Shown: positions 5,160 through 29,422 of the stretch, piece by piece
Layout of the letters: every line of letters begins with the position of its first letter
Numbering within the stretch: the first letter of the stretch is position 1
NCBI GenBank assembly: GCA_016190245.1
Contig: JACPQY010000067.1
Location: 1-29,422 of the forward strand
Length of the DNA stretch: 29,422 nt
From: Nitrospirota bacterium
Lineage (GTDB): Bacteria; JACPQY01
Direction: 5' to 3'
The notes under the pieces: generated by a model
Told to the model about the DNA's origin: nothing
Database searches by the model: none
Seen by the model: only the letters and a program-made list of their open reading frames with translations
Position numbers and translations under genes: made by a program

Positions 5160-5267
5160 ATGACGGCTCTGGGAGGGCATGTCGATCACCGGAAGGCCAC
5201 GGCGGCCGAAGTGGGACGTGGCGTCACGTTCCTCTGCGCCCCGGCGGCTGCGGTCTCGCCGCGATGA
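5160..5267 (+). CDS. Possible 35-aa leader peptide coupled to the FapA gene
   Basis: A short frame begins at ATG 5160 and ends with a TGA that overlaps the ATG of the FapA-domain gene as ATGA. A likely -10 box ends 15 nt upstream of its start. The product begins MTALGGHVDHRK and matches nothing I know. Its main support is the exact stop/start overlap and the absence of a ribosome-binding site in front of the downstream gene, which would then depend on coupling. It could be chance. Confidence 0.3.
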   Translation: MTALGGHVDHRKATAAEVGRGVTFLCAPAAAVSPR

Positions 5268-6700
5268 ACCAGGCCGCCGGCGCACCTGCCGATCTCCCCT
5301 ACTCGGTCTCCCTCGCGACGGACGAGCTCGAGGCGTACCTCTCCTTCGACCCCAAGGGGCTCACGCCGGAGGATTGTGCCTCGATCACCGCCGACAACCT
5401 GAAAGAGGAACTCAAGCGACAAAAAGTCGTCCGGGGCATCCTGGAAAAAGAGATGGCTGATTCTCTGGCCCGGATTCACAAGGGGCAGGCCCTCACCAAC
5501 GCCGTCGTCGCGAAGGGCCATCTTCCGGAAGACGGTCAGGAGGGCCGGATCGAATGGCAGGTGGAGATCCACGACCAAGCCGCCGTAGTGGACGAGGCGA
5601 CCGGCAAGGTGGACTACCGCCAACGCAAGGTCATCAAGTCCGTGTCGCAAGGCGCCCTCCTGGCCCTGCGCCACGGCGCGCATACCGGAACGGACGGCCA
5701 CACCGTCACGGGGAGAGTCCTGAAAGCCAAGCGCGCGCAAGACGCGCAACTCGTGGCCGGGAAAAACGTCGAAGTCGTGCAGCGGCCGACGGGGGAGTAT
5801 GAATACCATTCCCTGATCAACGGCGTTTACGTCATCCTCGGGAACCGGATCGACGTCAACGAGAGCACCATCGTGGCGGCCGACATCGATTTCAACACGG
5901 GCAACATCAAGTGCAACGGCTCCCTCAAGGTGGGCGGGCGGATTGCGACCGGCTTCAAAGTGGAGGTCGAGAAGGACCTCGAGGTGGGCGACATGGTCGA
6001 GGCGGCTGAAATCGTCGCCGGTGGGAACGTCATCCTCCGCAGCGGGATCAAGGGGCAGGACAAGGGCATCATCAAGTGTGGGGGGAACTTTGCCGCGTTG
6101 TATGCAGAGCGCGCCGTTCTGGAGGTCCAGGGCGATGTCGAGATCGTAAACGGCTTGTTCGATTGCAGGGTCATCTGCGGGGGGAAGGTGATCGCCGTGA
6201 AGGGCAAGGGGGGCATCATCGGCGGCGAGATCCGGGCCGCCAAGGGGATCGAGGCGAAGAGACTCGGATCGGACTTCTCCTCCAGCACTGTTCTGGAGGT
6301 GGGGATCGACTTCCTTACCGAACAGGCTCTCGTGGAGAACGCCGCGAAGCTCAAGGCGCTCCAGGAGACGCTCGGAAAAATCGAGCGCGTCCTCTCGCGG
6401 GACATCCTCGAGAAGGGAGACCTCAGCTTCGTCCCCGAGCCGCAACGCCCCCAGTTCGTGCGCATCCTCGAAACGTGGCGCGCAGGACGCCTCACGCTCA
6501 AGCAACTGACTCAGGACAAGATCAACCTCCTCGAGAAGAAGAAGAACACGATCCGCGCGACCATCACCGCGCTCGAGCAGGCGTACGCCCGCGTGAAGCT
6601 GAAGATTGGGGTGTCCACGCTGACCACGGACAAGGAGTACAACCGAGTGGTGTTCTACGAGGATGTGGATGACAAGAAGATCAAATTCAGCTACAAGTGA
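5264..6700 (+). CDS. FapA / DUF342 domain protein
   Basis: This 478-aa cytosolic protein belongs to the FapA (DUF342) family, known for a right-handed beta-helix and polymer-like assembly; bacterial members are linked to cell-surface or polarity-related functions that are not well defined. Residues about 15-80 form the N-terminal alpha/beta part. Residues about 185-345 show the repetitive Gly-rich beta-helix pattern (NGSLKVGGRI, IVAGGNVILRSG, IIKCGGNFAALYAERA, CGGKVIAVKGKGG). Residues about 350-440 are a heptad-rich coiled coil. The C-terminus ends with DKKIKFSYK, as in many members. No clear ribosome-binding site precedes ATG 5264; translation may be coupled to the small upstream frame. Confidence 0.88.
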   Translation: MNQAAGAPADLPYSVSLATDELEAYLSFDPKGLTPEDCASITADNLKEELKRQKVVRGILEKEMADSLARIHKGQALTNAVVAKGHLPEDGQEGRIEWQVEIHDQAAVVDEATGKVDYRQRKVIKSVSQGALLALRHGAHTGTDGHTVTGRVLKAKRAQDAQLVAGKNVEVVQRPTGEYEYHSLINGVYVILGNRIDVNESTIVAADIDFNTGNIKCNGSLKVGGRIATGFKVEVEKDLEVGDMVEAAEIVAGGNVILRSGIKGQDKGIIKCGGNFAALYAERAVLEVQGDVEIVNGLFDCRVICGGKVIAVKGKGGIIGGEIRAAKGIEAKRLGSDFSSSTVLEVGIDFLTEQALVENAAKLKALQETLGKIERVLSRDILEKGDLSFVPEPQRPQFVRILETWRAGRLTLKQLTQDKINLLEKKKNTIRATITALEQAYARVKLKIGVSTLTTDKEYNRVVFYEDVDDKKIKFSYK

Positions 6701-6805
6701 CGCGTGGGATGTGGGTCGTCCCAGGCGACCGTGCATCCGGCTGACGACTCCTGGTGGAGGAGGTGAGGTCAGACAGTTCAGATCGACGTTCCGCTCAACT
6801 TCCTG

Positions 6806-11968: not shown

Positions 11969-12823
11969 TCAGGCGAAGAGCTTTTCCGCTTCCTGCGCCC
12001 GCTCGAGCATTTCGCCGAGGATGTCCTCCGTCTCGCCCTCGCGCACGCCGAGTTCCTTGAGCATCTCCTCGTCGAGCTTGAAGTACATCCCGTCGTAGCC
12101 AACCCCCTGCCCGGTCATCCGGCACAGGCAGTTGGCCACATGAACCACGCCGCAGAGCTGCCGGTTCAGTTTGGCCTGGGTGGGCTGGTGATGAAACTGG
12201 ATGGTCTCCACCAACTCCGGCGAGAGCCTCCACTTCTGCGCCGCCATGGCCCCGATCTCCGCGTGATCGAAGCCGAGCACCTGCTTCTCCGCCGAGGGAA
12301 ACTCGATGTTCTCGGATTGAACCATCCCGAGGATGGCCTCGAACTGCTCACCGAGGAAACGATCCAGGATCACCTTTCCTAGGTCGTGGATGAGGCCGGC
12401 GGTAAAGGCCGTGTCCCGCAGCGCCCGGTTGTGGCGGGTGGCCAGGGCCTGCGCGCCGTAGGCCGTCATGATCGAGTGGACCCAGAGGCTTCCTTTGTCC
12501 AGTCCGTAGCTCTTGAGAGACCGACGCAGCGTGTCGACAAACATGCCCGCGAGCGCGAGGTTCTCCACCACCGAGAATCCGAGAAGCGCCGTGGCCTGCT
12601 GGATCGAGGTGATCTTCTGCGGGAAACCGTAGAAGGGCGAGTTGACCAGCTTGAGCACCTTCGTGGTGAGAGACTGGTCGTGCGCGATGACATTCGCGAG
12701 GTCCTTCGCGGAGGCCTTCTCGTCCTTGGAGAGATCGAGGATCTTCTCCATCGTCTGAGGCATGGGGGGAAGATCCTGCAGCGTGCGCAGGATCTTGTTC
12801 ATCGTGGAGACGGCGGTGGCCAT
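11969..12823 (-). CDS. HDOD-domain signalling protein
   Basis: The 284-aa protein is an HDOD (HD-related output domain) protein. Such domains often sit in c-di-GMP, chemotaxis or stress-signalling proteins. The N-terminal pattern LPPMPQTMEKIL, HDQSLTTKVLKLVNS and ITSIQQATALLG is typical. Unlike many HDOD domains it keeps an HD-like HDLGK block (around residue 146), so residual phosphohydrolase activity cannot be ruled out. The C-terminal 60 residues are acidic and helical. ATG 12823 lies 9 nt after the cheD stop, which places it in the same unit and suggests a chemotaxis- or motility-related signalling role. Confidence 0.87.
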   Translation of the reverse strand: MATAVSTMNKILRTLQDLPPMPQTMEKILDLSKDEKASAKDLANVIAHDQSLTTKVLKLVNSPFYGFPQKITSIQQATALLGFSVVENLALAGMFVDTLRRSLKSYGLDKGSLWVHSIMTAYGAQALATRHNRALRDTAFTAGLIHDLGKVILDRFLGEQFEAILGMVQSENIEFPSAEKQVLGFDHAEIGAMAAQKWRLSPELVETIQFHHQPTQAKLNRQLCGVVHVANCLCRMTGQGVGYDGMYFKLDEEMLKELGVREGETEDILGEMLERAQEAEKLFA

Positions 12824-13447: not shown

Positions 13448-14584
13448 TCAATACGCCCTGGTGATCTCGACGTTGGTGTAGTACCTCTTGAGAATCTCGT
13501 CGAAGGGATGGCCCGCCTGGGCCATACCCCGCGCGCCCCACTGGCAGAGCCCCACGCCATGCCCGGAGCCCGACCCCATGAACTTGAATGAGCCTCCCTG
13601 TCCAACGACCTTGAAGTTGGTGCTCCGGATCCGATTGAATCCCATCTTCTCGCGAAAGACCTTGCCGGAGACCGCGCGCGAGCCGGACTCCGTCTGGAGG
13701 CGAAGCCGTTGCACACGCCCGCTGCCAGACGTGTCTTCCACCACCACGTCCGCAAGCCCCTTGAGGCCGAAGGCGCGTTCAATCTCCCGCGCGCTGATCC
13801 CGGTCTCCCAGTAGGTGTTGGGACAGTCCGTGTCGAAACCGCAGGGCACGCCCTGGAGAGAGGATTCGGGTCGGCCCCAGACCGCCTGTGAGGACTCCGT
13901 TTGCCCGCCGCAGCACGAATGGTAGTACGCCTCCACCACATCGCCCCCGGTGGTGATGACGAGGCCCGCCGTCTCGCGAACCGCCTGCTCGGCCGCCTCA
14001 TCCGCCCTCGATGTGCCGCGATACACCTGGTCCATCACCGTGGCCACGAGGTCGTACCTCGAGTCCTTGGGCCGCTTCTTCCTGAAGAGGGCGTAGGACC
14101 TGGAGGCCACCACCTGTGCCTTCACGGCCTCGATGGGCCACTTGGATGAAACCTCGTGGTTCACGATGCCGACCAGGTAGTCCTCGAGATCGAGATCGTT
14201 CACGACGAGGATCTTCGTGCGGTCCTCTGCGTGCAGGACCACGTCCCCCGCATAGGGTGCGCCTTCGATCTTGATCGGAGCCCCGCGGGTCGCCACACGG
14301 GCCCCGCTCTGAACGGACGCCTTGCCCTGCTCCCAATTCAAATGGAGCTGCCGCCCCTCGACCGTGACGCTGAGGGGATTGGTCTCGACGGCGACCTCGG
14401 ACGATCCGTCGGAAACGGTGAACGGACCGCCCTTGAGCACGAGGGGAGCCTTCTTCCAGGTGATGGCGACACGGATGCGCTCCCCCGCACGAGCGGGCGC
14501 CGCATGAATTATCGCGAGCCCCGCTCCCAGCCAGCCCGCAAGAAATAACAGTAGCCGGAAAGGGGTCTGGTGCTTCCGTTGCAC
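13448..14584 (-). CDS. SpoIID/LytB-family lytic transglycosylase-like protein
   Basis: The 378-aa protein has a signal peptide (hydrophobic residues 10-28, likely cleavage after ARA at 31-33), so it acts in the periplasm. SpoIID enzymes cleave peptidoglycan stripped of stem peptides. The catalytic Glu block is VNHEVSSKWPIEAVKAQVVA (Glu144), followed by ASRSYAL. The zinc-site block YHSCCGGQT lies at 221-229, and the C-terminal hallmark GSGSGHGVGLCQWGARGMA at 337-355. Most SpoIID homologues outside endospore formers are of unknown role in wall turnover. The start is GTG 14584, 17 nt after the HU-like gene stop, so it is probably co-transcribed with it. Confidence 0.9.
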   Translation of the reverse strand: MQRKHQTPFRLLLFLAGWLGAGLAIIHAAPARAGERIRVAITWKKAPLVLKGGPFTVSDGSSEVAVETNPLSVTVEGRQLHLNWEQGKASVQSGARVATRGAPIKIEGAPYAGDVVLHAEDRTKILVVNDLDLEDYLVGIVNHEVSSKWPIEAVKAQVVASRSYALFRKKRPKDSRYDLVATVMDQVYRGTSRADEAAEQAVRETAGLVITTGGDVVEAYYHSCCGGQTESSQAVWGRPESSLQGVPCGFDTDCPNTYWETGISAREIERAFGLKGLADVVVEDTSGSGRVQRLRLQTESGSRAVSGKVFREKMGFNRIRSTNFKVVGQGGSFKFMGSGSGHGVGLCQWGARGMAQAGHPFDEILKRYYTNVEITRAY

Positions 14585-16614: not shown

Positions 16615-18081
16615 TTACGCCTGGTGAAGGAGGAAATCGACGAGCGTGCGGACGCCGAAGCCGGTGCCCCCCTTGGGGCAGTAGGGAAGGTCGCGTTCGG
16701 TGAAGGCCGGACCGGCGATATCGATGTGGGCCCATGGCGTCTGCCCCACAAACTCCCGGAGAAACAGCGCCGCGGTGATCGCCCCGGCGTATCTCTCGCC
16801 GGCGTTCTTGAGGTCCGCCACCTCGCTCTTGAGAAGGTCCTTGTAGTCCTCCTCCATGGGCATGGCCCACATTTTCTCGCCTGTCCGCTCGCCCGATGCG
16901 AGGAGCGCCTGCACGAGCTTCTCATCGTTCCCAAACACGCCCGCGATCCTCTCACCAAGGGCCACCACGCACGCGCCCGTCAGCGTTGCCAGGTCCACGA
17001 TCAAGCGCGGGCGGCGGCGCGTCGCAAACACCAGAGCGTCCGCCAGCGTGACCCGTCCCTCGGCATCGGTATTGTTCACTTCGATCGTCTTGCCGGCCAT
17101 CGTCCGCACGACATCCCCGGGCCGGTAGGCGGATCCGCTCGGCATATTCTCGACGGCTGCGATGAGACCGATCACCTCAACGGGCGGCCGGATCTCGCGC
17201 AGCACCCGAAATGTTCCGAGAACCGCGGCCGCGCCGGACATGTCCGACTTCATGGTCTCCATGGACTTGGAAGGCTTGAGCGAAAGTCCGCCGCTGTCGA
17301 ACGTGACACCCTTCCCCACCAGCACGATGGGCCGAGACGTGGAGGGACGCCGCGGTCGGTAGTGCAGTTCGATGAACCGCGGCCGGTTGACGCTGCCCTG
17401 GGCCACGCCCAGGATCCCACCCATTTTCATCCTCTTGATCCACGCCTCATCCCGCACGCTGACGGACACGCCCGACCCGATGCGCCGCGCCGCCTCGGCC
17501 AGCGCCTTCGGCGTCATCGCGCAGGCCGGCTCGTTCACGAGGTCTCGGGCGAAGTTGACCGCGCGTGCGCCCCTGACAGCGCGATCCAGCACCTGGCGGG
17601 GGTTGCCGGCGATGCCGGCCGAGGGAACAAACGTGACCGAGTCCGGTTCGAATCCGTTCTCGGGCTTCTTGTAGTGGGAAAACCGGTAGACCGCCATTTC
17701 GGCGGCCTCCCCAAATGCCCTCGTGGCCGCCTCGAGATCCTCCCACACGCGATGCCTCCCGCCTGCCAGAACAATCTCGCGCGCCTTCACCTCCCGTCCA
17801 CGCACCACCGCGCGGGCCACCGCATGGCGCCATTTCTCCAGCGTGAAGGACGCCGCCTTTCCCACCCCAACAACGAGGACCCGACCCGCCCGGACATGGA
17901 TGAGGCAGGCCCGTCCCTCTTTGCCCTCGAAACGGTCGATCTCCAGCGCCTTCCGGACCGTCTGGCGGTCCCTCCCCCCGAAGCGGCCCCACATCGGAAC
18001 CTTCTCACCCTCGAATTGCAGAAGACATACGATGGACGAGGGGCGAATAGCAACGGCTGAGGAAGAGATGCGGAGGTCCAC
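16615..18081 (-). CDS. pepA: Leucyl aminopeptidase (M17)
   Basis: This 488-aa cytosolic M17 aminopeptidase removes N-terminal residues using two zinc or manganese ions. The first 150 residues are the divergent N-domain. The catalytic domain holds VGKGVTFDSGG (Lys and Asp ligands), MKSDMSGAA (Asp) and the signature NTDAEGRV (Asp, Glu and the bicarbonate Arg), plus DLATLTGACVVALG. All metal ligands are present. I chose GTG 18081, although the frame stays open further upstream, because a TTGCAA-N18-TAGAAT promoter ends 8 nt before it and the length then matches the family. It heads a unit with the cytochrome and argJ, and shares a divergent control region with the acyl-CoA dehydrogenase. Confidence 0.93.
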   Translation of the reverse strand: MDLRISSSAVAIRPSSIVCLLQFEGEKVPMWGRFGGRDRQTVRKALEIDRFEGKEGRACLIHVRAGRVLVVGVGKAASFTLEKWRHAVARAVVRGREVKAREIVLAGGRHRVWEDLEAATRAFGEAAEMAVYRFSHYKKPENGFEPDSVTFVPSAGIAGNPRQVLDRAVRGARAVNFARDLVNEPACAMTPKALAEAARRIGSGVSVSVRDEAWIKRMKMGGILGVAQGSVNRPRFIELHYRPRRPSTSRPIVLVGKGVTFDSGGLSLKPSKSMETMKSDMSGAAAVLGTFRVLREIRPPVEVIGLIAAVENMPSGSAYRPGDVVRTMAGKTIEVNNTDAEGRVTLADALVFATRRRPRLIVDLATLTGACVVALGERIAGVFGNDEKLVQALLASGERTGEKMWAMPMEEDYKDLLKSEVADLKNAGERYAGAITAALFLREFVGQTPWAHIDIAGPAFTERDLPYCPKGGTGFGVRTLVDFLLHQA

Positions 18082-18089
18082 GTCGCGCG

Positions 18090-18119
18090 ATTCTAGTCCG
18101 GCGACGACGCCGTTTGCAA
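18090..18119 (-). promoter_or_regulatory. Promoter of pepA
   Basis: On the minus strand, TTGCAA (18119-18114), an 18-nt spacer and TAGAAT (18095-18090) form a promoter. Eight nt separate the -10 from GTG 18081, so the transcript would be leaderless. This decides the pepA start. Confidence 0.65.
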
Positions 18120-18140
18120 GCTGGCCCCCGCCCCCCCCTC

Positions 18141-18168
18141 TTGCTTTCACCCGGGAGGCCCGCATAAT
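18141..18168 (+). promoter_or_regulatory. Promoter of the acyl-CoA dehydrogenase gene
   Basis: TTGCTT (18141-18146), a 16-nt spacer and CATAAT (18163-18168) lie in the 97-bp divergent gap with pepA. Ten nt separate the -10 from the ATG, so the leader would be only about 3 nt. A C8 run lies just upstream at 18131-18138. Confidence 0.6.
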
Positions 18169-18178
18169 AAGCCCTGCC

Positions 18179-19960
18179 ATGAGCGAGCCCACGTCCCCCA
18201 AGGGATGCGCCTTCCTCGTCGAGCCCTTCGGATCCGTCCCCATCTTCACGCCCGAGGATTTCACCGAAGAAGACCGCGCCCTGGCGCGCGCGGCCCACGA
18301 TTTCATGAGCGAGGAGGTCATCCCGCGCCACGAGGAAATCGAACGCAAGCAGGAAGGCGTGATGGTGGAACTTCTGAAGAAGGCGGGGCGCAACGGTTTC
18401 CTCTCCGCCGAGGTCCCCGAGGCGTACGGCGGACTCGGTTTCTCCAAGGCCCTCGGCATGCGCCTCTCGGAGGAATTCGCCCGGATGTCGTCTTTCGCCG
18501 TGGCCCTGGGCGCCCACACCGGGATCGGCACGCTCCCCCTCGTCTACTACGGGACCGAGGAACAGCGCCGGAAGTACCTGCCGCGCCTTGCCTCCGGCGA
18601 ACTGATCGCCGCCTACGCTCTCACCGAGCCGCAGGCCGGCACCGACGCCCTGGCCGCCAAGACGACCGCCGTGCTCGACGCGGACGGCCGCCAGTACCTC
18701 CTCACGGGGGTGAAACAGTTCATCACGAACGCAGGTTTTGCGGACCTTTTCACCGTCTTCGCGAAGATCGACGGCCGCGAGTTCACGGCCTTCCTCGTCG
18801 AACGCGCGACGCCCGGCGTGTCCGTCGGGCGCGAGGAGCACAAGCTCGGCATCGAGGGATCCTCGACCAGGCAGGTCATCCTCGAGAATGCCCGCGTCCC
18901 CGTCGAAAACCTCCTGGGAGAACGCGGCCGGGGCCACAAAATCGCCTTCAACATCCTCAATGTGGGCCGCCTCAAGCTGGGCGGCGGATCCATAGGCACC
19001 GCCAAGGAGTGCCTCGAGATCGCGACGCGCTACGCCAAGGAACGCCGCCAGTTCGGGCGACCCATCGCGGAGTTCGGCGTCATCCATCAGAAGCTCGCCG
19101 ATATGGCGACGCGGATCTTCGTGGCCGACAGCATCAACTACCGCGCGGCCGGCTTCGTGGACGCCCTCCTCAAAACACTCGACAAGGACAGTCCCGACTA
19201 CTTCAAGCGAGCCTCCGCCGCCATCGAGGAATTTACGGTCGAATGCTCGATCTCGAAGGTCTTCGGCACGGAGGCCCTCAATTTCGTGGCCGACGAGGCC
19301 CTCCAGATCCTAGGCGGCTACGGCTTCCTGCGTGACTACCCCATCGAGCGTTACTACCGCGACGCGCGCATCAACCGCATCTTCGAGGGCACGAACGAGA
19401 TCAACCGCCTCATCATCCCGAGCACGCTGCTCAAGCGGGCGATGGAGGGCATCATCCCACTCATGGAGTTCGTTCAGCAGGCTCAGGAGGAATTGGCCGG
19501 GAGCCGTAGCCTTGCCATCCCCGAGGGACCACTCCGCCGCGAGGCCGAGGCCGTCGTCCGCTCCAAACGCATCCTGGCCTACGTCGCCAACCTGATGGTC
19601 CAGAAACACATGGCGGACCTCAAGGACCAGCAGCAACACCTCCAGATCTTCAGCAACATGATCATTGATCTCTTCGCCATGGATTGCGCCACGCTCCGAG
19701 CCGAGCGCATCCTGCGGGAAAAGGGAGAGAACGGCACGAAAGTCTACCGGGACATGTGCCACGCCTTCGTCGCCTCGGGCAATGACCGCATCCTGGCCAA
19801 CGCGCGCCGTCTGCTGGCCAACGACATGGAAGATCTCGAGTTGCGAGGCCACCTGGACGTCATCGGCCGCTTCGCCCCATTCCTGCCCGTCCGAACCATC
19901 CAGATCAAGACCGACATCGCCCGCCAAGTGGTGGACATGGACGGCCGATTGTTCGCCTAG
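18179..19960 (+). CDS. Acyl-CoA dehydrogenase, VLCAD/ACAD9-like long form
   Basis: The 593-aa flavoprotein catalyses alpha,beta-dehydrogenation of acyl-CoA in fatty acid oxidation. Conserved blocks are AYALTEPQAGTD (FAD/substrate), GVKQFITNAGFADLF, ERRQFGRPIAEF and QILGGYGFLRDYPIERYYRDARI. The FEGTNEINR block carries the catalytic Glu seen in medium-chain enzymes. About 190 residues follow the usual end of a short or medium-chain enzyme, as in VLCAD and ACAD9, where the extension helps membrane association and dimerisation. An open frame runs upstream, but ATG 18179 is supported by the promoter and by protein similarity. The chain-length preference and electron acceptor are inferred. Confidence 0.93.
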   Translation: MSEPTSPKGCAFLVEPFGSVPIFTPEDFTEEDRALARAAHDFMSEEVIPRHEEIERKQEGVMVELLKKAGRNGFLSAEVPEAYGGLGFSKALGMRLSEEFARMSSFAVALGAHTGIGTLPLVYYGTEEQRRKYLPRLASGELIAAYALTEPQAGTDALAAKTTAVLDADGRQYLLTGVKQFITNAGFADLFTVFAKIDGREFTAFLVERATPGVSVGREEHKLGIEGSSTRQVILENARVPVENLLGERGRGHKIAFNILNVGRLKLGGGSIGTAKECLEIATRYAKERRQFGRPIAEFGVIHQKLADMATRIFVADSINYRAAGFVDALLKTLDKDSPDYFKRASAAIEEFTVECSISKVFGTEALNFVADEALQILGGYGFLRDYPIERYYRDARINRIFEGTNEINRLIIPSTLLKRAMEGIIPLMEFVQQAQEELAGSRSLAIPEGPLRREAEAVVRSKRILAYVANLMVQKHMADLKDQQQHLQIFSNMIIDLFAMDCATLRAERILREKGENGTKVYRDMCHAFVASGNDRILANARRLLANDMEDLELRGHLDVIGRFAPFLPVRTIQIKTDIARQVVDMDGRLFA

Positions 19961-19971
19961 GAACGCCCCTC

Positions 19972-20376
19972 ATGCCCATCTACGAGTACCAGTGTGAAAA
20001 ATGCCGCAAGAAGAGCTCGGTGCTTACCCTGCGCGTCTCCGAGGTAGTCCACCCCCGCTGCGAGCACTGCGGGAGCGAGAACATGAAGCGTCTCATCTCG
20101 CGCGTGCGCGTGGTGCGCTCTGAGAGCAGCCGCCTCGACCGAATGGCCGACCCTTCATCCCTCGCCGGACTCGACGAGAAGGACCCGCGCAGCATGGTAA
20201 AGTGGATGAAGAAGATGGGGCAGGAAATGGGAGAGGACCTAGGCGACGACTTCGACGGGATGATCGAGGAAGCGGAGAGAGAAGCCGAACACGGGGACGC
20301 GGGCGAACCGCCCTCGGACGGAGACGCAGCCACGCCCGACACCTCCGCCGACTCGACCAGCGACGACTCCGACTGA
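19972..20376 (+). CDS. FmdB-family zinc ribbon protein
   Basis: The 134-aa product begins MPIYEYQCEKC and has two CxxC knuckles (CEKC and CEHC), the FmdB zinc ribbon at residues 1-40. Such proteins are widespread, and their role (regulatory or RNA-associated) is not settled. The remaining 90 residues are low complexity, strongly acidic and Asp/Ser-rich at the C-terminus. It starts 11 nt after the acyl-CoA dehydrogenase stop and is likely co-transcribed with it. No independent function can be claimed. Confidence 0.85.
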   Translation: MPIYEYQCEKCRKKSSVLTLRVSEVVHPRCEHCGSENMKRLISRVRVVRSESSRLDRMADPSSLAGLDEKDPRSMVKWMKKMGQEMGEDLGDDFDGMIEEAEREAEHGDAGEPPSDGDAATPDTSADSTSDDSD

Positions 20377-21689: not shown

Positions 21690-24026
21690 TCATGCAGAAA
21701 TGGGTCCGGAGACAGGATCGCCCTGGCGGGTAGAACGATCCAATCCGGGCACTCCGGACGATCCGGATTTCCTCGGGAGACTGAACCAGAAAGTCGATCC
21801 GGAATTGTGTTGACTGGTCACGCCCACCCGGCCTCCGTGTTTTTCCACCACCTCCTTGACGAAAGCCAAACCGAGCCCGGTTCCCTTGCCCTTCCGATGT
21901 TGCGAGGACGTGGCGCGATAGAATTTCTGGAACAGGTTCGGGAGTTCCTTCTCATCGATCCCGTAGCCCTGATCGACGACGGAAACGGTAAGGCTGTCCT
22001 TTTCGGCGGTCAACGTTACACGGACCTCGCGGTCGGCCGGACTGTACTCGATCGCATTGGAAACCAGATTCGTCACTGCCTGGCTTAGCAGATCACCATC
22101 CACGGTCACGCTGTGATCGCCCGGGGAAATGTCCACGGAGAGGCGGATGGATTTCTCGGTTGCTCTCGGGCGGAAGCCCATGATGCATTGTTCGATCAAT
22201 CCTGCGACGTTAACCCGGGCCAGTTGCAGTTCCTGTCGGCCGGACTCGATGCGGGAGACGTCCAGGAAAGAGTCGATCAAGCGTCGGAGCCGTGCGACGT
22301 GGTCGAGAATCAGGTTGGTTTGTTTCTCCGCCTGGGGATCCGCCGAAAAGCGATCCTGCAGCATTTCCGCGTAGGTCTGGATCACGGTGAGGGGTGCCCG
22401 CATTTCATGCGACATGAAATGCACGACCTCCGTCTTGCGGCGATTGAGCTCGGCCAGAAGCGAGACATCGGCGAAGACAAACACGCAGGCAAGGAGAATC
22501 TGCTCCCGGTCCCAAACGCCCGCAGCCGTCAATCTCACGGTGCGCGGCGGTTCCTGGACGTCCACCTGAACCTCATAGTGGCCGCGGGGCGTGGCAATGG
22601 CTTGCAGGGCTTTGAGGATGGCCTCTCGCTCCCAGCCCAGGCGCGCATGGAGGATTCCCCAGATACTCTCCTCCGGCATGTGCCCATTAACTCGTATGCC
22701 CAAGTACTCCTTTGAAAGCGGGTTCAGGAAGATGATGCGCCCCAGCGGATCGGTGACCACGATGGCGGCCCCCGCCTCATTGAGCACGGTTCGAAGCATC
22801 TCCTGAGTCGAGAGGACGTTGTCCGTTGCCGCGCCCAGCGATTCAAACAGTTTCGTGAGGTAGGGCCCATTCAATGTCCTCATCTGGGCGTCCTCACCCA
22901 GGTGTGCCGCTCGGAGAATATGTCCCTGGCGCGCGCCGAGATCACGCATTTTCCGAACGGCGGATGCCAGGCGCTCCTGAAGGAGGCCGCGCGGCTCGTC
23001 CGAAGGGCCGTTACCGATGGCAGACGTCATGAGCATGGATGTGTACCTCTGCCCGAGGGCTTCCAGATCGGCGGGATTTTCCGGGAGCTGAAGAAAATTG
23101 GAATTCTCCGTCAACGTGAGTATCCCACCATTGATCTGGGAGACGCTGAATTCCAGATTGTGCCACGTCTGTTCAAAGGCGGCCGCGAGTTCCGCGATCT
23201 CGTCGGCGGATCGGCGGGCGTGAGGGAGTTTGGCCACGCCCAACCCCAGCCGGCGGATCCGTTCAGTCAAGGTTCGAAGAGGGCGGGACAGCCTTGACGA
23301 GAAGAAGGCGACCAGCGCGGTTCCGGCCACAAGCACAACCAAGGTCAGGGCTAGAAGAGTGAGGGTCGACCGGTGGAGAGTCTTCTCAACCCGCTCCTCC
23401 GACACGTCCACCTCGATCCGTCCGATGAGGGTCCTATCGTGCAGAATGGGAGCCGATACGTGAAGAGCATGAATGCCGGAAGGTGTCCCATAGCGCGCAA
23501 GTGAAGGCTGGCCGGAGGAACCCTGGCGGAGGGTGAAACCCGGAGGGTGGTGGTACATTGTGTTGTCTCCGGCTGAATAGGGAACCAGAATCCTGCCGTC
23601 CGCCTGAACGATAGTGAGGCTGAGGATGTCCAGATTCTGCCGGGATACGAGATCCGCCACGACGCTGTCCAGCGCAAGGCGCAGGTCGTGGGAGGGAAGC
23701 AGGACCACTTCATGACTCTGGATGGCGATCTGGTTGGCCATGGCCAGTACACCTTCCAGGTACAGTCTCCTGAAATTGGTTCGCTCCCTCATCGTGGTCA
23801 CTCCGCCGATGATGGCGACGGTGGCGATGATGACGCATCCGAATACGTAGATGAGCTTCTTCCTGACGGACGTACCCGTTTCTCCCGGCATGTCCGCCGT
23901 AGCGACTCTCCGGAACGTCCCGAACAAAGGTCGCGAGAGGGGCCTGATTGATTCCTGCGGCGCGCTTGTCGCCTGACCGGGCCGCGTTCCAGTCTCGGAT
24001 ATCGAGGGGCTATCGGGACGTAGCAT
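21690..24026 (-). CDS. Membrane sensor histidine kinase (Cache-like, HAMP, PAS, HisKA, HATPase)
   Basis: The 778-aa kinase has membrane segments at about 58-76 and 221-242 enclosing a Cache-like periplasmic sensor. These are followed by HAMP (about 243-295), a linker, PAS (about 412-525), HisKA with phospho-acceptor His540 in HFMSHEMRAP, and a HATPase domain with N-box NLVSNAIEYS, G1 DQGYGI and G2 GKGTGLGLAF. It autophosphorylates and would pass phosphate to an unlinked response regulator; none is adjacent. About 50 extra residues precede TM1, and a start at the Met in ADMPGET is also possible. The start overlaps the barrel gene stop by 17 nt, so it is translated from the same mRNA as the surface genes. 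Confidence 0.92.
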   Translation of the reverse strand: MLRPDSPSISETGTRPGQATSAPQESIRPLSRPLFGTFRRVATADMPGETGTSVRKKLIYVFGCVIIATVAIIGGVTTMRERTNFRRLYLEGVLAMANQIAIQSHEVVLLPSHDLRLALDSVVADLVSRQNLDILSLTIVQADGRILVPYSAGDNTMYHHPPGFTLRQGSSGQPSLARYGTPSGIHALHVSAPILHDRTLIGRIEVDVSEERVEKTLHRSTLTLLALTLVVLVAGTALVAFFSSRLSRPLRTLTERIRRLGLGVAKLPHARRSADEIAELAAAFEQTWHNLEFSVSQINGGILTLTENSNFLQLPENPADLEALGQRYTSMLMTSAIGNGPSDEPRGLLQERLASAVRKMRDLGARQGHILRAAHLGEDAQMRTLNGPYLTKLFESLGAATDNVLSTQEMLRTVLNEAGAAIVVTDPLGRIIFLNPLSKEYLGIRVNGHMPEESIWGILHARLGWEREAILKALQAIATPRGHYEVQVDVQEPPRTVRLTAAGVWDREQILLACVFVFADVSLLAELNRRKTEVVHFMSHEMRAPLTVIQTYAEMLQDRFSADPQAEKQTNLILDHVARLRRLIDSFLDVSRIESGRQELQLARVNVAGLIEQCIMGFRPRATEKSIRLSVDISPGDHSVTVDGDLLSQAVTNLVSNAIEYSPADREVRVTLTAEKDSLTVSVVDQGYGIDEKELPNLFQKFYRATSSQHRKGKGTGLGLAFVKEVVEKHGGRVGVTSQHNSGSTFWFSLPRKSGSSGVPGLDRSTRQGDPVSGPISA

Positions 24027-25806
24027 TGATCGAATCCAATCTGCGGATAATGGATTCCGCGTTCTCCACGAAAGTTTTCATCTCGGCGTTTTCCGGTGCG
24101 TGTTGCAGTCCTCGTCGCCAGAAGCGGGCTGCCTGGCGATAGTCCCGGGCCCGAAACGATTCGAGACCCAGGTAGCGATAGGCACGGCTCAGGGAGATTC
24201 GCGTGACCGAGTGACCCGGCACCTCTCTGAGCACATCCTCCCAAGTGGAGATGGCAGAGCTGTACTGGCCTTGTTCGTACTGTCGCTTGCCGGCGTCGAA
24301 ACGCCTTTCCTGATCTGGACCGAGCAGGGGTTCCGGAGTCGGTTCCGGTTCTGGAGTCGGCTCCGGTTCCGCGGACGGTGCGGCAACCCTCACCACCGGA
24401 GCCTTGGGCGCAGGGGTGGAGGGGGTGTGAACACGGGGTGTCGCTGGAGGCTCCGCGGGCGTGGGCTCGTCGGCGACCTGCGGAGGAACGGCAGGGGCCG
24501 GTTCAACGATCGGCTTCGAGAGCGCCTCCTTCAAATCGATGGCCTTGAGCGATGCCTGGGAGGCCAGAATCCAGGCCTCCTCGTAATTCCTCGCTTGGGT
24601 GGCGGTGCGGGCATCCTGGAAGACCCGGCTGGCCTCCTCGAATCGCTCCGGTTCACGGTGTTCTCCTCCAAGCTCCCAGACCGCCCCGAGGAGCGTCCCG
24701 GCCTGATGCATCGCCTGTTCGACAAACTTCATGGATGTGTCTTCTACCGTTGACTGAACCAATTGGTCTCGCGCCGTGCTATCCTGTTCGATGCGGCGCG
24801 AGTACAGAACGTCGGGCCCGGTCTGCCGCGCCTGAGATCCGAACCTGTATCCCAGCGCAACGCGATGTTCCGCGGGAAATGGACTCTGGGAGGTGAGGCT
24901 GTAGTCCACAGACAAGATTCCCAAGGAAAGTCCCGCTCCCGTGGAATAGACGATTCGGTCGGGGCTCAGCGCGCTGCCGCCCCGTAGCGAGAGTGCGAAT
25001 CCTTTCGAATTCGACGACTCGGATTCGTCGGAGGGCGAAGCGAACCGTGACCCCCGGGAGGTCCAGACATATTCAAGGCCGAGTCGAACCCCGGCCTGCG
25101 AGTTGAGAGGCACAAATCCGTCCAACCCAAGGGCCACGTCGCCGGCCAGCAGGGGAAGATCCCGTCGAAGTAGCTTATAGCCGATGCCCACGTTGGCTTG
25201 AGTTGGAAGCTGGGCATGGCGCTGTCCCTCCCGAACGCCGGGGCCCAGATTGAGGATGGACGCTCCGACCTGAAGATTCTGCACGGGCACCCTGTATACC
25301 GCACCCAGGTCGGTGGCGGCTCCGACGGATCGAGTGTCGAATACCTGCTGGTGAAATGCTTTCAAGAAGACGCCCACGCTCGTGGAGGGCCCCATATCCC
25401 GGCCGAATCGGCCGACAATGACACTGCGGGTTTCCCGTCCGGATCCCACAGTCTTGGAATCTCCCATGGTGAGGGCAAAATCGCCGAGATCCGCATAGTA
25501 AGCAAACATGCCGATCGTGCCCCGCGAGGAGATGCCCTGGTTGTATTCCATGCATCCGGCGTGCCCGCCTGCGCTGGGTTGGACGTAGCAGAAGGCGCCG
25601 GCTTTGCGGACCACCATCGCAAGCGCCGCAGGGTTTTGACTTGACGAAGAGTAGTCATCGGCAAGTCCGGTGGCGGCGCGCCCTATCGCCACGGTACGGG
25701 GATGATCCAACCCATCGAGAAAACCTGGACCAACGGCTCCCGCGCCCCAAGCGCGACCGGCACTGAGCGTGAAAATCAGGGCCAACCCGCCGGGTGTGGT
25801 GCGCAT
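24010..25806 (-). CDS. PorV/UPF0164-like outer-membrane barrel fused to TPR
   Basis: The 598-aa protein has a signal peptide (about residues 1-22) and a PorV/UPF0164-type beta-barrel of the FadL superfamily across residues about 25-345. Evidence is the early ARTVAIGRAATGLADDYSS-like lipid-transporter N-terminus (RTVAIGRAATGLADD...NPAAL) and alternating strands such as YEYVW-type and RVALGYRF endings. A helical stretch (346-425), a Pro/Glu-rich linker (about 428-505, with PEPTPEP repeats) and a TPR-like region (about 512-590) follow. In type IX secretion PorV is the outer-membrane acceptor for cargo. Here the barrel gene abuts the CFI-box surface protein gene with no gap. The fused linker and TPR could reach periplasmic or peptidoglycan partners; that is inference. 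Confidence 0.78.
   Translation of the reverse strand: MRTTPGGLALIFTLSAGRAWGAGAVGPGFLDGLDHPRTVAIGRAATGLADDYSSSSQNPAALAMVVRKAGAFCYVQPSAGGHAGCMEYNQGISSRGTIGMFAYYADLGDFALTMGDSKTVGSGRETRSVIVGRFGRDMGPSTSVGVFLKAFHQQVFDTRSVGAATDLGAVYRVPVQNLQVGASILNLGPGVREGQRHAQLPTQANVGIGYKLLRRDLPLLAGDVALGLDGFVPLNSQAGVRLGLEYVWTSRGSRFASPSDESESSNSKGFALSLRGGSALSPDRIVYSTGAGLSLGILSVDYSLTSQSPFPAEHRVALGYRFGSQARQTGPDVLYSRRIEQDSTARDQLVQSTVEDTSMKFVEQAMHQAGTLLGAVWELGGEHREPERFEEASRVFQDARTATQARNYEEAWILASQASLKAIDLKEALSKPIVEPAPAVPPQVADEPTPAEPPATPRVHTPSTPAPKAPVVRVAAPSAEPEPTPEPEPTPEPLLGPDQERRFDAGKRQYEQGQYSSAISTWEDVLREVPGHSVTRISLSRAYRYLGLESFRARDYRQAARFWRRGLQHAPENAEMKTFVENAESIIRRLDSINATSR
24335..24370 (-). repeat. Two tandem 18-bp copies coding Pro-Glu/Thr repeats
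   Basis: Two adjacent 18-bp units at 24335-24352 and 24353-24370 match at 16 of 18 positions. They encode the PEPTPEP part of the linker in the barrel-TPR protein, a region likely to vary in length by slippage. Confidence 0.7.
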
Positions 25807-28800
25807 CTACGTGGTTCGGCCAAAGGACACCAGCCGGTCTAGGATCCACCGGACAGACCTGATCACGGCAGGTTTGTCCTTCAACCTGCGGACCAAGAGA
25901 GGTGACCACTGGTAGTACGTCCCAATGATCCATCTGCCTGTGGACGACTTCGAGAGAACGGAATCCCGGAATCGTTTCAGCACGAGAACGTTCGGATGGA
26001 ATGGATTTCCATAGACCGCCGTGGCCACGAAGCAACCCTTGTCCTCCGCATGAATCACCATGTCGATGGATTTCCGGTAGTCCTGCGTGGCAAAGACTCC
26101 CCGGTAGCGACCGATACCGAGCATTCTTCCGCCTTGATCCTTTCCGTCCCATTCGATGGACTGGGGGCCCGCCGGTCGATTCGTGTCTTGAAACAGCGTG
26201 CGGACCGGCTCGCCCATCGAATCGTAGATGGCGAGCGAGGCGGGGCCGGCCCTGGAGAGGTTGAAGCGGATGGTGGTGGATTCCGCCTGGGGGTCGAAGG
26301 GGTTGGGGAAGCTCTGGAACAGCCGGTTTTCCGGCAGTGCCATGAACTGGATGTCCGCACCACTGGCCAAGGTCAAGTTCTCGTCCACAACCGTCGCATG
26401 CAACGTGAGGGACTGTTCTTCGAAAGAGTAGACCTTCACCTCTGCGCTGCCGGTGCTGTCGCTGATCCGCTCCGGGGGCTCGATGACCAGGCTGGAGGAC
26501 TGGTCGGTGTGAAACTGAACCGTCTTCCCCGCGACAGGGTTGCCGTACGCGTCTCGGATGTACGCGATCACCCGGACGGGCGTCTCACCGTCGGCCACTG
26601 ACGATACGGGGTCGGCGGCAACGATGGAAAGCCGATTGTCCGAAGTGCACGCCCGGCCGTCTATCGAAAAGTTGAGCGGACTGCCCGCCAGCCCAGTACG
26701 AATGGCCTGCAAGGTCGTTCGCCCAGCGCGCTGCCCGATCACAACCTTCACCCGGGCCAGACCGTCAGGCCCGGAATTGACGAGATCGGAGGTGAACTGG
26801 GTCGTGGGATCCGATCCCGGTGGCAATGAGAAGGCTACAGAGACGCCCTCCACGCCCACTCCCAGCGCATCCGTCACGCTCGTTTCGAGGATCGTCTCGG
26901 TGCCCACGCAACCCTGAAGAATGCCGTCGCTCGAGTGAAAGCCCATTCGATCCGCGACGTTCACGAGGACGCCGAACGCCTGGCTCCGGATCGCCCGGGT
27001 GGGACCGGAATTGTTCCCTTCCTGAGCGGAATGGGCTTGTATCACAATGGCGTAGTCGCTACCGGCAGCGTATTCCGATGCCGCAGAGTCCCAGCGAGCC
27101 TCAAAGCTCCCCGGACGCTCCCGAACGGTGCGTATATCGGCCAACCCAACGGGCATGTTTCCCTTGAGGACTTCAAGGGTCGGCTCCTGGCCCAGGGTGC
27201 TCACCTCAGATCCGTCGGGCCGTGCTACGGTAAAGATCATCCTCGCAATCGATCCCCTGGAGATGTCATTGGGTTGGGTTGCAATGTCGAGGAGGAGATC
27301 CGTATTGATTTGGTGCGGTGCCTCCAGGGAAAACAGCGGGAAAGAGCCCTTGACGGCCACTCCATCCCCGAGACGCAGATCTCCCTTTTGCTCGACCTCG
27401 GCCTTCAGGAGCTCGCCGGTGCTCGCCTTGTCGCTGACATCAAAGGCCACGAAAAACACACGGTCGCTGCCGGGCCCGATCCCAACGTCCGTGAAAAGGA
27501 ATTCCTTTTTCGCGGACCGAAACGGTCCTGGCTCTCCGATTTCCGGATCGCCGTTTGGACCAGAAACGAACTTCTGGTCGCCCTCGTCGATGTGGAGGTG
27601 AACCGAGGCCACGGACGAATCATCTGAATTCAGACTCGTGACCGTGATTCCTTTGACGACCTGGCTGTCCTCGCCCGCGTTGTGGACGAGGAGAGCGAGG
27701 ACCGGAACCCTACTGCTTCCGGCCGAGACGACCCTGAAATCGATCGGCAGGGATCCCCAGAAAAGGGAACGCGCGGTCACCGTGAAAGCCCCCGAGGTCA
27801 GTGTTGCTTCAGGACCCTGCAGCCCGGATCGCGTCCCGGAATCGCCCGCCACCCGCAGGGTGTAATCGGTTCCCGAGGTTTGGGTGGGCGGGACGGACCA
27901 TACCGCTTTGTAGCGCCCGCCGGCGGCATCCACAGTGCTCCAACTTGCGGAACCCACGTTCTGTTCCCCTTTGAAAACGAACACGGTGGGGGATCGGTCG
28001 AACTGCTGCACGGGGGCCGAATCGAATCCTCTTCGAACAGTGAATTCCATCCAGGCGTCATCCCCGATGGCTGCCGCAGCCGGTTGAGCCTCGGCCCTGA
28101 ATTGGAGACTCGTGTCGATGCTGAAGGCTGCCGTGGAATGAGACGCGACTGGACCCATATTGCCTGCGCTGCCGGCTGAGTTCGCCTTGACCATGAGCAC
28201 GTAGTCAGGACCATTCACTTGATAGTCGGGAATCAACCAACTGATCCGATACTTTCCTTCATTCGGGTTCACCACGTCCCATGCGCCTGCGCCCACCTCC
28301 TGGGCTCCCTTGAACACCTTGACCCTGGGAAGCGGGTCGAACGAGGCAACCGGGCTGCCGTCCGAGTATTGAACCCGAACGTCGCACGCGGTGGTCTCCC
28401 TAGCTGTTCCGGCCTTGGGCTGATTCAACAAGGCGAATCTGAGCGTCGTATCCACGGAGAAATCAGCCGAGGCCAGTTCGGCACTCACGCCCTTGTTGCC
28501 GGCGGCCTGGGCGGTGCCGGCGAAAAGCGCGATGTTGTAGTTTGTGGCCGATGCTTGAAAGTCGGGTATCTTCCACGTGGCGCGGTATCGGCCGAGCGAG
28601 AAATCGAACACCGACCAACTGGGAACGGCCACATTCGAAATGCCCAGCCGTACGTTCAGGGTCGGAGGGGCCTCCAGCGTCTGAACGGGGGTGCCATCCG
28701 AGAAGGTGACGGCATATTCCGCCACAACCGTGTCGCCCGCCTTCCGGGGCGACGGCTGCGTGACCAGTGCAAACCTGAGCTGCGTGTCCACGGCAAAGCC

Positions 28801-29422
28801 GTTGGAGGCCAGACCTGTGGCTGGACCGAAATTGCCTCCCGCCGATCCGGAGGATGCCGTCAGCAGGAAGTTGTAGTTGCTTGACGTCGTCTGCAAATCG
28901 GGTACCACCCACGTGGCACGGTAGGTGCCGAGCGAAGCGTTGAGGGGAGACCAGGTGGCCGATGCGATTTCGGCGCCGCCCTCTTTCACTTTTACCGCAG
29001 GCGACACGCCGAAACTCGTGACGGCGCTCCCGTCGGAATACAGAGCCCTGTAGTCCGCGGATACCGTTTCACGGGCTTTCGCGGGGCCGGGCTGGGCGGT
29101 CAGGATCAGGGTAAGGGTGGGATCGACGAGATGGCCGCTGTCCACAGCCGTTCCGAGCGAGCTCAGAGGAAAGGAGCCGGACATGGTGTACGGTCCCTGG
29201 GGGAGATCGCCTGCGACGTCGACCATGGCGTTCAACCGGGCGCCGGCCGTGGCCGTTGCCGAGATGTCGAAAGCGACAAACAACTGCTGAGTGCCTCCGT
29301 TCTTCGCAATGACGAGGTTCAGCCCGTTGAACGTGTAGACCCCACCCATGAAAGCACCCGCGTTGCCGATTTCCAAGTCCGTCGTCGGAGTGAATTGCCC
29401 GTCGCCCGTGTCTGCAAAAAGG
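25807..29422 (-). CDS. Giant Ig-repeat surface protein with FlgD-Ig and CFI-box C-terminus (5' end outside window)
   Basis: More than 1200 codons are open to the window edge with no stop, so the N-terminus lies outside. Order in the visible part (minus strand): the end of an unrecognised domain X; four Ig-like repeats of about 110 aa (29118-28789, 28782-28453, 28443-28114, 28107-27778); a full X domain (27762-27322); a fifth Ig repeat (27297-26962); two Big_1/invasin-like domains (26955-26659, 26637-26338); a FlgD-Ig-like domain (26328-26053) with SFPNPFDPQAESTTIRF; and a C-terminal CFI-box segment (from Cys1115, base 26034) reading CFVATAVYGNPFHP. The repeats differ at DNA level and are protein-level repeats. 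CFI-box C-termini are a proposed sorting signal of unknown mechanism. It directly abuts the PorV-like gene. Confidence 0.85.
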   Translation of the reverse strand, partial: LFADTGDGQFTPTTDLEIGNAGAFMGGVYTFNGLNLVIAKNGGTQQLFVAFDISATATAGARLNAMVDVAGDLPQGPYTMSGSFPLSSLGTAVDSGHLVDPTLTLILTAQPGPAKARETVSADYRALYSDGSAVTSFGVSPAVKVKEGGAEIASATWSPLNASLGTYRATWVVPDLQTTSSNYNFLLTASSGSAGGNFGPATGLASNGFAVDTQLRFALVTQPSPRKAGDTVVAEYAVTFSDGTPVQTLEAPPTLNVRLGISNVAVPSWSVFDFSLGRYRATWKIPDFQASATNYNIALFAGTAQAAGNKGVSAELASADFSVDTTLRFALLNQPKAGTARETTACDVRVQYSDGSPVASFDPLPRVKVFKGAQEVGAGAWDVVNPNEGKYRISWLIPDYQVNGPDYVLMVKANSAGSAGNMGPVASHSTAAFSIDTSLQFRAEAQPAAAAIGDDAWMEFTVRRGFDSAPVQQFDRSPTVFVFKGEQNVGSASWSTVDAAGGRYKAVWSVPPTQTSGTDYTLRVAGDSGTRSGLQGPEATLTSGAFTVTARSLFWGSLPIDFRVVSAGSSRVPVLALLVHNAGEDSQVVKGITVTSLNSDDSSVASVHLHIDEGDQKFVSGPNGDPEIGEPGPFRSAKKEFLFTDVGIGPGSDRVFFVAFDVSDKASTGELLKAEVEQKGDLRLGDGVAVKGSFPLFSLEAPHQINTDLLLDIATQPNDISRGSIARMIFTVARPDGSEVSTLGQEPTLEVLKGNMPVGLADIRTVRERPGSFEARWDSAASEYAAGSDYAIVIQAHSAQEGNNSGPTRAIRSQAFGVLVNVADRMGFHSSDGILQGCVGTETILETSVTDALGVGVEGVSVAFSLPPGSDPTTQFTSDLVNSGPDGLARVKVVIGQRAGRTTLQAIRTGLAGSPLNFSIDGRACTSDNRLSIVAADPVSSVADGETPVRVIAYIRDAYGNPVAGKTVQFHTDQSSSLVIEPPERISDSTGSAEVKVYSFEEQSLTLHATVVDENLTLASGADIQFMALPENRLFQSFPNPFDPQAESTTIRFNLSRAGPASLAIYDSMGEPVRTLFQDTNRPAGPQSIEWDGKDQGGRMLGIGRYRGVFATQDYRKSIDMVIHAEDKGCFVATAVYGNPFHPNVLVLKRFRDSVLSKSSTGRWIIGTYYQWSPLLVRRLKDKPAVIRSVRWILDRLVSFGRTT

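Follow-up and report, generated by a model that had tools for sequence, protein, structure and literature searches.

A candidate trans-envelope device in Nitrospirota: a CFI-box surface-type protein, a PorV/PorQ-like barrel with a predicted periplasmic tail and a Cache sensor of exchangeable output

Introduction

Contig JACPQY010000067.1 of a Nitrospirota bacterium (assembly GCA_016190245.1), analysed here over its whole length (29,422 of 29,422 bases; hereafter the window), carries three consecutive genes on its minus strand, encoding a large surface-type protein that ends in a CFI-box (29421-25807), a PorV/PorQ-like outer-membrane barrel with a periplasmic tail (25806-24010) and a sensor histidine kinase (24026-21690). 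We propose that they constitute one trans-envelope device, which anchors a surface protein and couples it to an inner-membrane sensor; we put the chance of this at about even. A single device is probable because a related genome retains the triad in duplicate, and it is chiefly because that paralogous locus retains the triad with a swapped output that we propose a signalling device.

If the triad works as proposed, a surface protein would signal across two membranes through a PorV-like barrel outside type IX secretion. A recurrent, strand-consistent link to outer-membrane barrels supplies the CFI-box with a testable partner; the name ‘CFI-box’ was not found in the literature searched. The novelty lies in finding CFI-box cargo combined with a TPR-tailed PorV-like barrel and an exchangeable Cache sensor in the absence of type IX secretion, and in a wider association between CFI-boxes and barrels. 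The phylum was sampled by two genomes, the source genome (G000, 85% complete) and a relative from another genus of the same family (G001, 97% complete).

Results

The gene triad and its duplicate copy

The three genes are packed without gaps. At the first junction the surface-protein gene ends in ...ACG TAG and is followed directly by the ATG CGC of the barrel gene, while the ATG of the kinase gene lies 17 nt inside the end of the barrel gene. An earlier note, made from this DNA alone, had recorded this order, the gapless packing and the overlapping sensor kinase, all of which we confirm; its description of the surface protein as directly fused must be given up, the first two genes being adjacent and separate, and the range it assigned to the group (24010-29422) leaves the kinase (21690-24026) outside.

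The same three genes, with identical junction types and 75–80% identity, form an orthologous locus in the relative. At a second locus in that genome a paralogous CFI-box protein, again with Big_1 and FlgD_ig domains, is accompanied by a barrel-TPR protein 37% identical to that of the window, and here the third gene is an sCache_3-HAMP-guanylate/adenylate cyclase, which replaces the kinase. Junctions in these loci abut or overlap. The window kinase (21690-24026, minus strand) has two transmembrane segments and a PAS match, and its HAMP, HisKA and HATPase_c domains exceed their gathering scores, which identifies it as a sensor histidine kinase. Its periplasmic sensor domain (23367-23795, minus strand) is homologous to the sCache_3 domain of the cyclase, the homology of the two proteins running from the periplasmic part to HAMP (BLASTP E 7e-18, 29% over 185 residues). 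Judged from these alignments, the surface protein, the barrel-TPR protein and the sensor domain are conserved and the output is exchangeable. That the third gene is conserved while its output changes argues for signalling in addition to anchoring, a role that goes beyond what the earlier note proposed.

Alternatively, the barrel could act on its own, as a channel or as a structural protein of the outer membrane, and scaffold a complex in the periplasm. The Ig-like protein would then be periplasmic or use its helical CFI-box to tether itself to a membrane, and the genes would be co-expressed for a shared condition without their products joining in a single complex. Self-tethering is plausible, since the CFI-box is confidently helical and is followed by a transmembrane segment in 37 proteins elsewhere. 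It would however be unusual for mere co-regulation to preserve these three partners through a duplication in which the output was swapped, and CFI-boxes pair recurrently with two unrelated barrel families (see below); we consider this alternative unlikely.

Across the two genomes, every CFI-box adjoins a barrel-TPR gene (3/3). The source genome has a single CFI-box, and its best match to PorV_fam is the very next gene; the relative has two, each followed by a barrel-TPR gene. Among four other, weak PorV matches in the source genome, three are FadL-type or resemble FadL-type proteins. Such barrels are few in a genome of some thousands of genes, and it is very improbable, by a rough estimate and no formal test, that all three CFI-boxes would lie next to one by chance.

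Directly upstream of the orthologous CFI-box gene of the relative (L011:14285-17568) lie genes for a response regulator-HD-GYP protein and a PAS-GGDEF-EAL protein, the latter overlapping the CFI-box gene.

The barrel protein

The 598-residue barrel protein (24010-25806, minus strand throughout) begins with a signal peptide and a barrel part (residues 1 to ~326, 24829-25806), within which the PorV_fam match spans 24841-25704; relatives from other phyla align over residues 8-326 only. There follow a helical segment (residues 343-430, 24517-24780) that is DUF4398-like in the orthologue, a proline-rich linker (residues 431-496, 24319-24516; 22 prolines in 66 residues) and a TPR domain identified by domain match (residues 499-595, 24022-24312). 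Against the PorV_fam model NF033709 the window barrel scores 79.9 bits (E 2.4e-22), under the curated cut-off of 90, and the barrels of the relative score 86.4 and 68.7 bits; the PorQ model gives 65.4 bits, also below its curated cut-off. On these scores we read it as a relative of the PorV/PorQ family that lies below the curated line.

The note's label of a PorV/UPF0164-like barrel with a TPR tail thus holds in its PorV-like part and for the tail, and fails for UPF0164 (PF03687), which has no match in the barrel protein and none in the source genome, the latter a weak negative in that no control genome matched either. The same note had held that a generic FadL transporter would speak against its idea. 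The family scores rule this identity out: the barrel is PorV/PorQ-like and has no FadL/Toluene_X (PF03349) match at E 0.1, a model that three other proteins of the source genome do match. A sequence search of the PDB returned no match for the barrel part and matches for the TPR domain only.

Both termini of an outer-membrane barrel face the periplasm, and the tail is therefore expected to be periplasmic; its proline-rich linker, if extended, could span ~20 nm. In a comparison set made up of 290 genomes from across the domain and a further 383 selected around another centre, full-length barrel-TPR matches come from this family only, and PorV-like barrels outside it have no TPR tail; the tail thus accompanies CFI-paired barrels alone. 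A FlgD-Ig-like motif within ~1.5 kb was found for one of the 38 closest barrels in other phyla.

The surface-type protein

The gene for the surface-type protein (25807-29421, minus strand throughout) is open at its 5' end, where the contig stops at 29422, so that the N-terminus is lost and 1204 residues are visible. Its complete orthologue in the relative (L011:8434-14340) has 1968 residues and a hydrophobic, signal-peptide-like N-terminus. Four tandem Ig-like repeats of ~110 residues (residues 104-552, 27766-29112; pairwise identity 32–42%) precede a Big_1 domain (bacterial Ig-like group 1/invasin D3-like; residues 935-1015, 26377-26619), a FlgD_ig domain (26101-26286, 33.7 bits) and, at the very end, the CFI-box (residues 1130-1198, 25828-26034). 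The box scores 73.2 bits against NF041770 (E 1.1e-20; curated cut-off 40) and belongs to that family, and the earlier placement of a C-terminal CFI-box after FlgD-Ig and Ig repeats is borne out. It is modelled as four helices, with a predicted local distance difference test (pLDDT) score mostly above 90, and terminates the protein with no transmembrane tail, unlike those 37 other CFI-box proteins. A PDB sequence search with the box gave no significant match, and a Foldseek search with its model gave nothing under E 0.3, the query being diluted by the low-confidence Ig part. Elsewhere in the two genomes FlgD_ig is confined to short FlgD-like proteins, apart from one weak match; a third FlgD_ig-bearing protein of the relative (L186) lacks both a CFI-box and a barrel neighbour.

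Type IX secretion

The SprA/Sov translocon is absent from both genomes, by a search that was positive in both of two Bacteroidota controls, and on this absence we reject membership in type IX secretion. The type A C-terminal domain (CTD) model TIGR04183 reaches 12.9 bits in the surface protein, in the FlgD_ig region only, against a curated cut-off of 23, and no type B CTD or PorP/SprF model is among the NCBIfam matches to E 1 for the surface protein and the barrel. The suggestion of a system comparable to, and distinct from, type IX secretion survives to this extent.

One form of that suggestion is an export system, a secretion route that would take the place of type IX secretion or be a simpler version of it. 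The PorV-like barrel would shuttle or accept CFI-box substrates, the box would be their sorting signal and the kinase would merely regulate. The similarity of the window barrel to PorV/PorQ speaks for it, as do the occurrence of FlgD_ig plus a C-terminal domain beside a barrel in two lineages and the genetic linkage of specialised shuttles to type B cargo (PMC12618676). Yet SprA is absent, no CTD model matches over its cut-off, one CFI-box in the source genome and two in the relative imply one cargo per barrel and not a general system, and many CFI-box proteins are cytosolic or archaeal. We think an export system improbable. The CFI-box as an export signal in itself is ruled out, because many of the proteins that bear it are archaeal or have no signal peptide.

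CFI-boxes and PorV-like genes in other lineages

The CFI-box domain is present in 43 named loci and in 41 of the 290 genomes. Our reading set comprised 119 CFI-box open reading frames (ORFs) in 106 loci; the alignment (A3) included as one bait a typical CFI-box sequence, which served only to broaden the search patterns. The box ends the protein in 71 of these ORFs (30 of them with a signal-peptide-like N-terminus by a crude hydrophobicity measure), is followed by a transmembrane segment in 37 and by a long further domain in 11. CFI-boxes also terminate zinc-ribbon and other cytosolic-looking proteins and proteins of Thaumarchaeota, as well as small proteins without a signal peptide on IMG/VR contigs classed as viral (L017:5677-6225, L018:5389-6228).

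A broad PorV hidden Markov model (HMM), built from barrels of other genomes and the three barrel-TPR proteins, added PorV-like genes at CFI-box loci in one genome only, G095. There, a 1422-residue protein with LTD, metallo-beta-lactamase, FlgD_ig and CFI-box domains is followed 72 bp downstream by a PorV-like gene, with a second in tandem. Another PorV-like gene precedes that of a CFI-box C11 peptidase by 443 bp; the cluster to which the two belong also encodes a secretin, TPR proteins and an sCache_3-GAF protein, and it is kept in the related genome G233. We take G095 and G233 as independent support for the CFI-box/PorV link, which is nevertheless restricted to some lineages. The co-occurrence that the note had proposed to look for is found in part: it is complete in the sampled phylum and recurs in an unrelated lineage, but the majority of CFI-boxes from other phyla are without a PorV neighbour. 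The CFI-box as a universal PorV partner is ruled out, most CFI-box loci having no PorV-like gene.

The conserved cluster (L203:2352-11753, L206:1321-9746) comprises a TPR-AMIN protein, the PorV-like barrel, a lipoprotein, the CFI-box C11 (clostripain-type) peptidase, the secretin, a TPR protein and the sCache_3-GAF membrane protein. At L141:2035-3969 of G095 a PorV-like barrel is joined to two OB-folds and a ComEA-type helix-hairpin-helix; this fusion adjoins a CFI-box protein with LTD and metallo-beta-lactamase domains, has ComEA-like genes nearby and is possibly linked to DNA uptake.

A second barrel family beside CFI-boxes

Several genes for CFI-box proteins with a transmembrane tail adjoin a second family, a small outer-membrane barrel that matches NCBIfam NF040596 (MXAN_2562; 144 bits for L037). 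An HMM seeded with 11 copies found 7 further ones among the ~1,100 genes of the CFI-box loci, and all 18 are directly downstream, on the same strand, of a CFI-box-transmembrane protein or fused to it. Loci with the barrel directly 3' of such a gene include L037, L050, L055, L060, L126, L148, L149, L167 and L174, and named hosts of these pairs include Nitrospirota, Gammaproteobacteria and Bdellovibrio. All of the family's 12 best matches in the 290 genomes are at CFI-box sites, a partly circular result because 10 of the 12 were used in the alignment; weaker relatives do not lie beside CFI-boxes. Profile comparison gave no homology between the PorV-like and MXAN_2562 families (hhalign probability 0.2%). 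Envelope CFI-box proteins are thus recurrently, though not universally, partnered with outer-membrane barrels.

In the fusions (L127, L134/L135, L144/L145 and L152) the box is followed by a transmembrane segment, then by a signal-peptide-like stretch and only after these by the barrel; L170 has the same two elements after the box and another barrel-like end. Judging by this layout of exported protein, CFI-box, transmembrane segment, internal signal-peptide-like stretch and barrel, the fused ORFs look like polyproteins derived from two genes. Single fused ORFs are L127:4014-6110, L134:4140-6197, L144:4239-6161, L152:4218-5270 and L170:4083-8453; L131 and L137 share the layout and end in a non-barrel domain.

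Other genes of the window

Outside the triad the window encodes an HDOD protein (11969-12823, minus strand), a SpoIID-domain protein (13448-14584, minus), an acyl-CoA dehydrogenase (17723-19960, plus) and a small Zn_ribbon_8 protein (19972-20376, plus). Two long ORFs overlap on opposite strands (5186-6736, minus; 5264-6700, plus), of which the minus-strand one has no Pfam match.

Discussion

In the proposed device the Ig-repeat protein would be exported by Sec, and its C-terminal region (FlgD-Ig and CFI-box) would be held at the outer membrane by the adjoining PorV/PorQ-like barrel. The helical, proline-rich and TPR tail of the barrel would cross the periplasm and contact the Cache domain of the inner-membrane sensor, such that binding to the surface protein, or pulling on it, may alter the activity of the kinase or, in the paralogue, of the cyclase. 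Surface location, binding of CFI-box to barrel, contact of TPR with Cache and the direction of signalling are all points that we infer. In favour of the device we count, besides the conserved triad and its homologous sensor domains, the signalling genes upstream in the relative, the restriction of the TPR tail to CFI-paired barrels, the limited occurrence of FlgD_ig elsewhere in the two genomes, the G095/G233 loci and the MXAN_2562 pairs, with the type IX barrels that hold surface proteins as a precedent.

Several observations weigh against this proposal. The argument is carried by three loci and one ancestral duplication in two genomes of the phylum; a single-sequence fold of the barrel gave a pLDDT of only ~30; and the proposal offers no route by which a large Ig protein would pass the outer membrane without SprA. 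CFI-boxes are also found in cytosolic-looking and archaeal (Thaumarchaeota) proteins, and therefore the box is not a general barrel ligand.

The direction of control could also be reversed, as in the control of LapA by LapD: cytoplasmic nucleotide signals from cyclic di-GMP enzymes, relayed by the inner-membrane protein and the TPR tail, would decide whether an Ig adhesin is retained or released. The HD-GYP and GGDEF-EAL genes directly upstream in the relative and the adhesin-like Ig repeats would fit such inside-out control. The transmembrane protein, however, has a sensor-type Cache domain and kinase or cyclase outputs and is not a degenerate GGDEF-EAL receptor, and the loci showed no gene for a periplasmic protease; we regard inside-out control as very unlikely.

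A wider form of the proposed device is conceivable, though we hold it only tentatively. Envelope CFI-box proteins may be a general cargo class whose dedicated barrels belong to two or more unrelated families, the PorV-like and the MXAN_2562-like among them, and are paired with the cargo in trans or, via polyproteins with an internal signal peptide, in cis; the lineage of the window would then have made a surface-sensing device by adding the TPR tail and a Cache sensor whose kinase and cyclase outputs are interchangeable.

Among known systems, LapA/LapD adhesin control and the FecA/FecR transducers connect a signalling protein of the inner membrane, by way of a periplasmic part, to a protein at the surface or in the outer membrane. 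The window module shares this trans-envelope layout, but no parts homologous to theirs were found in it. It resembles other NF041770 proteins in its full-length match over the cut-off and differs in lacking a transmembrane tail and in having a PorV-like, not an MXAN_2562-type, neighbour. With the MXAN_2562 barrels it shares an outer-membrane barrel directly 3' of a CFI-box gene, although those barrels have no profile similarity to that of the window.

In type IX secretion, PorV serves as the surface anchor of PorU, and PorQ as that of PorZ (PMC5562754). The window barrel is similar to PorV and PorQ at the scores given above; it differs in falling below the curated cut-offs, in its TPR tail and in the lack of a type IX translocon, and no PorU or PorZ was seen in the window. 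Type IX CTDs are moreover beta-sandwich, Ig-like domains, whereas the CFI-box is predicted to be all-helical.

SprB is held by SprF, and PG1035 by PorP-PorE (PMC9143113). As in those systems, the C-terminal region of a large surface protein would be paired here with a nearby-encoded barrel of the FadL superfamily (PMC9143113, PMC12618676), and PorP is linked to a further periplasmic protein, PorE. The differences are a helical CFI-box in place of a type B CTD, a PorV/PorQ-like barrel with a TPR tail of its own, the absence of SprA and the presence of a Cache sensor protein in the module. By analogy, it is reasonable to say that the window module may work like the SprB/SprF and PG1035/PorP/PorE layout, not that it is a member of it. 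If the triad works as proposed, PorV-type barrels would be seen to anchor cargo with unrelated C-terminal domains.

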